Assembly (NCBI GenBank): GCA_019638385.1
Contig: JAHBTW010000009.1
Coordinates: 1-64,000 of the forward strand
Origin: Saprospiraceae bacterium
GTDB lineage: Bacteria; Bacteroidota; Bacteroidia; Chitinophagales; Saprospiraceae
Reading direction: 5' to 3'
DNA length: 64,000 bases
This document shows positions 22,205-23,253 of this stretch, in pieces. Each line of letters begins with the position of its first letter. Position 1 is the first letter of the stretch. The notes below the pieces were generated by a model. It was given only the letters and a program-made list of their open reading frames with translations, ran no database searches and had not been told where the DNA came from. The translations under genes were made by a program, and so were the position numbers.

Positions 22205-22357
22205 GGTCGGGATGTTTTATGCCGGAGCGGATGTTCAAAACAGCGCCGGGAGATTTTCAAAAACGGCTTTTTCTTGTTTTATTAAAATGCGAAAACGGCA
22301 ATAATTTTGTAAAATTTTTGAATTATTTGTAAATTTTAAAAATAATCATTGAAATAT

Positions 22358-22389
22358 TTGTATTTAAAGAAGCGGTTCTTTTATCTTTG
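22358..22389 (+). promoter_or_regulatory. Strong promoter upstream of the tRNA-like RNA
   Basis: TTG (22358-22360), 21 bases, then TATCTTTG (22382-22389), a full Bacteroidota promoter in an AT-rich tract. Transcription should begin near 22396. The first 77 nt before the cloverleaf can form a leader stem (CGTCAG near 22393 with CTGACG near 22459). Confidence 0.75.
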
Positions 22390-22472: not shown

Positions 22473-22682
22473 TGTGAGGTGATGAAACTGGCAGCCATGC
22501 CCTCTTGTCTCGAGGGTGGGGAAAATCGGCTACGGCCGGCTAAAGGAATAAACACTGCGTAACGCCGATGACGCCCGGGCGTCACCGACTGGGGTTGACC
22601 ACCAATCGGGTGAGGGTAGCTCCCTCTACATTTTTGCGCAGATGCTAACCTCCTCGTGAAGGTTCGAATCCTTCTCTCACAG
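22473..22682 (+). ncRNA. tRNA-like RNA with giant structured variable arm
   Basis: A complete tRNA frame can be traced. Acceptor stem TGTGAGG (22473-22479) pairs with TCTCACA (22675-22681), with one G-T pair, then G73 (22682). U8 is present. D stem ATG/CAT (22482-22484, 22496-22498) encloses A14, A15 and GG (22490-22491). Anticodon stem CCCTC/GAGGG (22500-22504, 22512-22516) has loop TTGTCTC, i.e. U33 and apparent anticodon GUC, but unusual U37. T arm is GAAGG-TTCGAAT-CCTTC (22658-22674), and A15 could pair with T22657 as the Levitt pair. The variable region is about 141 nt (22517-22657): base stem GGGGA/TCCTC, a UACG-capped hairpin (22527-22538), CTGCG/CGCAG (22555-22559, 22637-22641) and a 16-base palindrome (22569-22584). 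The 5' half resembles tRNA-Leu; G73 with a long arm fits tRNA-Ser. CCA is not encoded. Confidence 0.7.
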
Positions 22683-22695
22683 CTTATTTTTTACT

Positions 22696-23253
22696 ATGGC
22701 TTATACTGAATCCAACATGCTTCCCTTGGGCACAACGGCTCCTCCGTTTCGCCTGCCCGACACGGTATCCGGCAAAGATTTTTCTTTCGACGACATCGCC
22801 TCCGAGCGGGCTACGGTCGTTATGTTTCTTTGCAATCATTGCCCTTATGTCATTCATGTCAATCCGGAAATTGTGCGGCTGGCCAGGGAGTATCAGGAGA
22901 AAGGCGTGGCATTCGTGGGCATCAATTCCAATGATGTAGAACACTACCCCGATGATGCGCCCGACAAAATGAAAGTGCTGGCCCATGAAGTGGGTTATAC
23001 GTTTCCTTACCTCTTCGACGAAACGCAGGAGGTAGCCCGCGCTTACGATGCGGCCTGCACGCCCGATTTTTATGTGTTCGACGGCCAAAAGCGATTGGCT
23101 TACCGCGGCCGCTTAGATGCCGCGCGTCCCAAAACAGATACGCCCCTGAGCGGCGCCGACCTGCGCGCCGCGCTTGATGCCGTACTCGCCGGGCGCCCTG
23201 TGCCCGAACGGCAGTATCCGAGCGGCGGGTGTAATATCAAGTGGAAAAAGTAA
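22696..23253 (+). CDS. Thioredoxin-like redoxin (AhpC/TSA-type fold)
   Basis: A 185-residue cytoplasmic protein of the thioredoxin superfamily. GTTAPPFRLPDTVSG is the usual N-terminus, and the redox motif is CNHCP (Cys46, Cys49) in VVMFLCNHCPYV. Then come VAFVGINSNDVEHYPDD and the cis-Pro-like segment CTPDFYVFDG, ending in CNIKWK. Proteins of this type are often annotated as thioredoxin family protein and act in thiol redox or peroxide handling. Its ATG lies only 13 nt after the discriminator base of the tRNA-like RNA and a U-rich run, so RNA processing could set its mRNA 5' end. The ABC exporter gene follows 42 bases later. Confidence 0.85.
   Translation: MAYTESNMLPLGTTAPPFRLPDTVSGKDFSFDDIASERATVVMFLCNHCPYVIHVNPEIVRLAREYQEKGVAFVGINSNDVEHYPDDAPDKMKVLAHEVGYTFPYLFDETQEVARAYDAACTPDFYVFDGQKRLAYRGRLDAARPKTDTPLSGADLRAALDAVLAGRPVPERQYPSGGCNIKWKK

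Follow-up and report, generated by a model that had tools for sequence, protein, structure and literature searches.

Within a stretch of 64,000 nucleotides (nt) from a Saprospiraceae bacterium (GenBank assembly GCA_019638385.1, contig JAHBTW010000009.1, positions 1 to 64,000, forward strand; hereafter the window) lies, at 22473-22683 on the plus strand when counted from position 1 to C74, a transfer RNA (tRNA) fold whose variable region extends over 141 nt (22517-22657). This tRNA fold with its structured variable-region insert represents a genuine, uncatalogued RNA gene family. Judging by the identity elements that it bears, the RNA is probably a dedicated non-decoding carrier tRNA, which aspartyl-tRNA synthetase (AspRS) would load with aspartate and on which the amidotransferase GatCAB would make asparagine. 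The evidence lies in its structure and conservation, these identity elements, its autonomy as a gene, its co-occurrence with GatB, and the lack of any other tRNA beginning with U1 among those found in the window genome. The wider proposal, that a class II tRNA-derived noncoding RNA is the sole carrier of asparagine biosynthesis (loaded with aspartate, amidated and then relieved of its product, never decoding) and that phages carry it as an auxiliary metabolic RNA, has about an even chance of being right.

A covarying family of tRNA-like RNAs

Folded alone, the window copy does little better than chance (z -1.86; 9/200 shuffles as good), ARAGORN detects no gene either in the window or at the relatives' loci L001-L030, and Rfam gives no gathering match on the element either in the window or in the relatives' loci (permissive E-values add chance matches only); the case therefore rests on the relatives. 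By blastn, 31/61 related genomes have matches, which frequently stand in tandem, in twos or threes. In a first set of 32 aligned copies, with the structure written by hand, 96.6% of the cells are paired and 22 pairs show double changes (137 such cells); none of 500 shuffles of this alignment reached either the paired percentage or the double-change count, and slid structures score far lower. RNAalifold, unaided, recovers the acceptor, anticodon and T stems together with three helices of the variable arm, 32 pairs in all, of which 20 show compensatory changes. A second set, comprising 92 distinct copies picked by covariance model and not by sequence pattern (hence pattern-free), is 97.0% paired with 487 double changes, again with 0/500 shuffles as high, and a third, pattern-selected set holds 583. 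The compensatory changes fall in the acceptor, D, anticodon and T stems as well as in the variable arm. Against the covariance model the family mostly scores above 75 bits, and ordinary tRNAs 18-50 bits; because the low-scoring matches in that range are ordinary tRNAs, the number of elements was not taken from the tally of 272/299 at E 0.001.

All copies share the 7/5 acceptor/T geometry of a class II tRNA, with a D arm like that of tRNA-Leu, and the variable arm is long in 91/92 aligned copies (50-150 nt). It consists of stem 1 (GGGG/CCCC), a bulge, stem 2 (CGG/CCG), an internal loop (GAUAAAC / GGCUAA) and helix 3, so that the core reads, in order, GGGG, bulge, CGG, (G,A)ATAAAC, helix, GCTAA, CCG, CCCC. 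Helix 3 ends as a simple hairpin in short copies and opens into more hairpins, one of them GGGUUGACCAC, in long ones. No CCA is encoded at the 3' end; in two such genomes the ordinary tRNA genes likewise usually encode C74 and not CCA. In the window copy, the parts are arranged as follows.

22473-22683 (+): whole tRNA-like RNA, position 1 to C74; covariation, and a covariance-model match of 119.9 bits that spans all 153 positions
22473-22479 (+): acceptor 5' strand TGTGAGG, beginning U1 G2 U3, partner 22675-22681 (7 base pairs); 100% paired in the 32-copy alignment, double changes in 5/7 pairs
22482-22498 (+): D arm, tRNA-Leu-like in sequence, stem 22482-22484 / 22496-22498, G18 G19 at 22490-22491; the D stem covaries
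22500-22516 (+): anticodon arm CCCTC-TTGTCTC-GAGGG with a stem of 5 base pairs, GUC at 22507-22509 and C38 at 22511; sequence and 92-copy counts
22518-22521 (+): variable-arm stem 1, 5' strand GGGG, partner 22652-22655; 100% paired, double changes in 3/4 pairs (32-copy alignment)
22527-22538 (+): CGGC-TACG-GCCG hairpin, an insertion in the window copy, by sequence; missing from the other 31 aligned copies
22544-22553 (+): variable-arm stem 2, 5' strand AGG (partner 22649-22651), then the internal-loop strand AATAAAC; double changes in all 3 stem 2 pairs, A-rich strand nearly invariant
22555-22559 (+): variable-arm helix 3, 5' strand CTGCG, partner CGCAG at 22637-22641; double changes in all 6 helix columns across the family
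22591-22603 (+): GGGGTTGACCACC hairpin, long subtype, with loop TTGA and a bulged A22601; kept in most long-type copies
22637-22655 (+): helix 3 3' strand, GCTAA internal-loop strand (22644-22648), stem 2 CCT (22649-22651) and stem 1 CCTC (22652-22655); CTAA invariant in the 32-copy alignment
22658-22674 (+): T arm GAAGG-TTCGAAT-CCTTC; 100% paired
22675-22683 (+): acceptor 3' strand TCTCACA, discriminator G73 (22682) and encoded C74 (22683); G73 and C74 in 265/265 pattern-selected copies

The D stem has 3 base pairs, accompanied by A14 and GG, and the best local resemblance of the D arm is to tRNA-Leu(CAG) of the same genome. A 16-base palindrome (22569-22584) and a TCACCGA/TCGGGTGA stem are likewise present. 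The original prediction, made from the window sequence alone, had listed these cloverleaf parts, the CTGCG/CGCAG helix, the palindrome and the hairpins, all of which are in place, and had taken them for a genuine tRNA fold outside any known RNA family. A covariance-model search of related genomes bears this out with compensatory changes in both cloverleaf and insert, no Rfam family covers the locus, and an intron fails as an explanation because the anticodon hairpin and the variable-arm core are kept in relatives. Only the C(UACG)G hairpin drops out of the predicted anatomy as a family feature, being found in neither sister species. The GGGGTTGACCACC hairpin motif, in its strict form, is present in 59/153 genomic and 104/120 viral copies. 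Among viral copies, L181, L182, L189, L192 and L201 have an extra hairpin in the D loop, a second insert-tolerant place in the tRNA body, and a 78-nt relative in genome G385 (L411, 338-415) has the loop CTATCTC and no long variable arm.

An anticodon loop that departs from decoding needs

U33 and a purine at position 37 are normal needs of decoding. Among the pattern-free copies, 92/92 have U35, C36 and C38 and 88/92 have G34, while U33 is kept in 79/92 and position 37 is U in 82 copies, C in 6, G in 3 and A in 1 (purine in 4/92). The suspicion that the RNA is abnormal as a decoding tRNA was thus well placed. An ordinary tRNA-Asp(GUC) coexists with the RNA in both genomes checked, the window genome and the complete genome G142, which means that the RNA is not needed for decoding; on these features, it should not be expected to decode. 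Does it then stand in for something else that is missing? The draft genome is without Leu(UAA), Val(UAC), Ala(UGC) and Ile(GAU), yet G142 has all four, in a full tRNA set, plus the RNA, and replacement of transfer-messenger RNA (tmRNA) was rejected on the presence of tmRNA in 26/26 genomes tested. Two structural readings of the loop were also set aside: a hammerhead-like reading of TGATGA...GUC, from which the D stem covaries away, and kissing of GUC with GGUUGACC as a general mechanism, since short copies keep GUC without GGUUGACC. In the lineage of G385, the long forms L409 and L410 (G473 and G688) have the anticodon CUC. Genome G688 is without glutaminyl-tRNA synthetase (GlnRS), and the replacement of GUC by CUC there could represent a switch to glutamate.

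Two identity sets in one RNA

The determinants of E. coli AspRS are GUC, G73, G2:C71, C38 and G10 (PMC6523644). The RNA keeps this set except for G10, and the two loop positions that vary, U33 and 37, lie outside it. The original prediction held that its features do not fit tRNA-Asp; they do fit as far as AspRS identity goes, and it is only the body, class II and Leu-like, that does not. At the other end of the molecule, U1-A72, G2-C71 and U3-A70 are each found in 92/92 pattern-free copies, and U1 in 261/265 pattern-selected ones. U1-A72 is the signal for bacterial GatCAB to amidate Asp-tRNA(Asn), and G1-C72 and U20a in tRNA-Asp prevent that amidation (PMC9976931; PMC4206432). As read from these determinants, the RNA joins a predicted AspRS identity to a predicted GatCAB identity. 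In the window genome tRNA-Asn is G1-C72 and tRNA-Gln A1-U72, and 0/40 distinct tRNAs found other than the RNA start with U1, leaving the RNA as the only tRNA fold found there with the known GatCAB signal; on L156, another element-bearing contig, tRNA-Asn is also G1-C72.

Co-occurrence with GatB and the missing asparagine synthetases

If one RNA unites the two identities, genomes that bear it are predicted to encode GatCAB. In a sample fixed before the GatB search (14 complete or near-complete Bacteroidia with the RNA and 12 without), GatB was found in 14/14 element-positive and 0/12 element-negative genomes (Fisher p 1e-7). Element-positive and element-negative genomes stand side by side within the same families (f1, f21 and f23), so that several independent gains or losses agree. 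In a sample of 395 genomes from the phylum, which reaches beyond class Bacteroidia, GatB accompanies the RNA in 41/41 element-positive genomes. Beyond this class, GatB often occurs in genomes that lack the RNA, as would be expected wherever asparaginyl-tRNA synthetase (AsnRS) or GlnRS is missing. In the 26 tested Bacteroidia, by contrast, AsnRS is present in 26/26 and GlnRS in 25/26, and GatCAB therefore has no obvious job otherwise in the element-positive genomes. The GatB of the window genome is intact (484 amino acids).

How, then, do these bacteria make asparagine? AsnA was found in 0/14 element positives, and AsnB of the E. coli type (555-578 amino acids) in 0/14 positives vs 8/12 negatives (p 0.0003); in 6/14 positives no asparagine synthetase exceeded the cut-off.

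An independent gene

The signals and the neighbour that bear on the expression of the window copy are these.

22357-22389 (+): Bacteroidota-type promoter, TTTG (22357-22360) and TATCTTTG (22382-22389), by sequence
22696-23253 (+): AhpC/TSA-Redoxin-family gene directly downstream, a neighbour only (Pfam AhpC-TSA, 3.5e-19)

The promoter had been foreseen, and its second element is matched in both sister species, where a TTATCTTTGC(A/C)NCGTC block occupies the same place upstream. More widely, a TAnnTTTG box lies at most 150 nt upstream in 78/114 genomic loci vs 28 on the opposite strand, and a terminator directly follows the RNA in 79/115 genomic loci vs 0 in shuffled controls. In the window, the redoxin ATG comes 13 nt after the RNA with no terminator between, and it was supposed at the outset that 3' processing of the RNA would create the 5' end of the redoxin mRNA. 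That link has to be given up for the family: in none of the other genomes fetched, sister species included, does a redoxin gene adjoin the RNA. Because this neighbour is unique to the window genome and a terminator directly follows the RNA at most loci, the RNA is an independent gene acting in trans. Neighbour clustering found the genomic surroundings to reflect lineage synteny (TrmB, SufB, MGMT-like) and no recurrent partner gene beyond it, and no copy, whether cellular or viral, has a GatB gene as its neighbour. Some 46 kb past the window, at G000:C35:109885-110338 (L357), is a cluster of low-scoring extra tRNA genes (Lys CUU, Trp, Cys, Pro UGG, plus a fragment) that may derive from a mobile element or a phage.

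A proposed route to asparagine and the points against it

The following scheme can be put forward for the RNA as an asparagine carrier. Its own promoter would drive transcription, and the transcript would mature as a tRNA does, with G73-C74 encoded and CA presumably added. The host's ordinary AspRS would read G34 U35 C36, C38, G73 and G2:C71 and charge it with aspartate, whereupon GatCAB, recognizing U1-A72, would convert Asp-RNA to Asn-RNA. Inside the ribosome such a molecule would place asparagine at aspartate codons; the charged RNA is presumably kept off the ribosome, since U33, a purine at 37 and an ordinary variable loop have not been retained. Hydrolysis would then probably free the asparagine, making it available to AsnRS and to the cell at large. 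As a guess, the variable arm may help to tether AspRS and GatCAB to each other or may obstruct the ribosome, and large phages would carry copies as auxiliary metabolic RNA.

Several observations weigh against this scheme. Position 10 is mostly A and pair 1-72 is U-A, whereas AspRS also favours G10 and G1-C72; the D loop is tRNA-Leu-like, and GatCAB rejects tRNA-Asp partly by an extra D-loop base; and a few copies have CUC, UUC or AUC in place of GUC. In the complete genome G142, tRNA-Asn itself is U1-A72, and the known tRNA-Asn route is therefore possible there if its AspRS is non-discriminating. The window genome encodes a long AsnB-family protein (651 amino acids). With regard to co-occurrence, GatCAB was scored by GatB alone, and the p-values overstate independence because the genomes are related. 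Finally, the phylum sample contains three GatB-positive genomes of class Bacteroidia, and only three, without the element. They are G355, G463 and G508, in which no RNA copy was detected; GatB of the latter two scores lower than other GatB (1e-94), which suggests a different origin.

Alternative explanations

Could the charged and amidated RNA serve an end other than asparagine supply? A dedicated transferase might donate its asparagine (or aspartate) to a protein, lipid or cell-wall target, an idea that draws on the same identity and GatB evidence and on the non-decoding loop, and that has a precedent in the staphylococcal non-proteinogenic tRNA-Gly, from which glycine enters peptidoglycan. 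We nevertheless regard it as unlikely, given that no partner gene recurs beyond lineage synteny, that phage copies have no obvious adjoining transferase and that the missing asparagine synthetases point to asparagine supply. Slightly less likely again is that GatCAB makes asparagine on ordinary tRNA-Asn charged by a non-discriminating AspRS, as in Bdellovibrio, the RNA having a separate or accessory task, e.g. as a transamidosome scaffold or AspRS buffer. This route is established elsewhere and has been predicted for some Bacteroidetes (PMC4206432), and the U1-A72 of tRNA-Asn in G142 would suit it; but the G1-C72 of tRNA-Asn in the window genome and on L156 leaves the known GatCAB signal absent there, and it is the RNA itself that bears both identity sets.

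The non-decoding loop and the phage clusters shared with tRNAs and tmRNA would also accommodate an RNA that regulates or sequesters a tRNA-binding factor (AspRS, RNase P, the CCA enzyme or an anticodon nuclease), pairs with mRNAs via its NNGUCYC loop, or acts as a phage decoy. This is improbable: position 37 varies within the putative pairing loop, conservation in hosts is vertical, and the invariant U1-A72 and the GatB co-occurrence would be left unexplained. Neither a decoy nor a substrate of seryl-tRNA synthetase, both floated in the original prediction, is supported as the leading idea. The probability falls further for an unusual decoding tRNA (for aspartate or for recoding) with an expanded variable arm, for although the GUC anticodon, the complete cloverleaf and the tRNA-like 3' end speak for it, U33 is lost in 13/92 and the purine at 37 in 88/92 copies, ordinary tRNA-Asp is present, the linkage to GatB would be without reason and mistranslation would be a risk. 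As for a cis-acting leader of the redoxin mRNA, processed at its 3' side to give the mRNA its 5' end, the short terminator-free gap to the ATG in the window is set against a neighbour confined to this one genome and the terminators seen elsewhere and never in shuffled controls; such a role is contradicted as the function of the family, could at most be a local side effect, and is hardly credible as an explanation.

If the RNA is indeed a carrier for asparagine synthesis, it would be the first noncoding RNA known to us whose dedicated task is the synthesis of an amino acid, and tRNA chemistry would here be split from decoding. It would also explain why many Bacteroidota keep GatCAB despite having AsnRS and GlnRS, how some of them make asparagine without an asparagine synthetase, and why the RNA is present in large phages.

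Distribution in hosts and phages

The new RNA class, missed by ARAGORN and Rfam, is spread over the Chitinophagales, the Cytophagales and another class of the same phylum, and over more than 120 viral contigs, some longer than 200 kb. In phages it sits in clusters of tRNAs and tmRNA or between genes of the packaging region, and 52/120 viral stretches have no other tRNA. Annotated phage and plasmid collections contained no homolog, the only match being one of 23 nt in the T arm to two phage tRNAs. In L196, L204 and many other phages, the RNA begins about 5 nt past the stop of the upstream gene, just before a putative terminase large subunit gene. A number of RNA-bearing large phages (L208, at 1697-2093, and also L219, L221, L236, L238, L241 and L253; likewise L264, L267, L289, L290 and L292) have tmRNAs with long, related tags, such as DEMSTMTFEDLMSFVGADYALAA, much above the usual tag length.

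Comparison with known systems

The RNA is undescribed in the literature searched, most subscription papers being outside that search. Canonical tRNA (RF00005 or ARAGORN) does not describe it, being undetected by these tools and departing at U33 and position 37; a group I intron in a tRNA is countered by the lack of any Intron_gpI or other Rfam match and by the insert core kept in relatives, and a cis-regulatory leader or T-box by neighbours that vary with lineage and by the terminators directly downstream.

With tRNA-Asp the RNA shares GUC, C38, G73 and G2:C71, whereas tRNA-Asp has G1-C72, G10, U33, a purine at 37 and a short class I variable loop where the window copy has 141 nt. With tRNA-Leu it shares the D arm sequence and the class II body, and differs in G73 instead of A73, in GUC, in U1-A72 and in a variable arm that spans 50-150 nt and contains internal loops and a junction. 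tmRNA is also tRNA-like with a large insert and also occurs in phages, but has no D stem or anticodon stem and contains a tag reading frame, whereas both of these stems covary in the RNA, which has no RF00023 match. The staphylococcal non-proteinogenic tRNA-Gly is likewise a tRNA set aside from the ribosome; it is of ordinary size, works with another amino acid and other enzymes, and involves no amidation. Other non-canonical bacterial tRNAs with long variable arms, namely allo-tRNA, selC-like tRNAs and tRNA-Sec, have acceptor/T stems of 8/4, 9/3 or 8/5, in contrast to 7/5 here; allo-tRNAs are in fact defined by 8/4 or 9/3 (PMC7609411).

The nearest functional relative is tRNA-dependent asparagine synthesis on tRNA-Asn by a non-discriminating AspRS and GatCAB (Deinococcus, Thermus and Bdellovibrio), which has in common with the proposed route charging by AspRS (here predicted) and the U1-A72 signal for GatCAB, and which also coexists with AsnRS and GlnRS, AsnA/AsnB being lacking in several hosts. 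There, however, the carrier is the decoding tRNA-Asn (GUU), whereas the carrier proposed here is a separate RNA that combines an Asp anticodon, a class II body and a large variable arm and has no decoding loop. The chemistry is known and the carrier is new, and by its architecture, and with no known RNA in such a role, the RNA class is categorically new.
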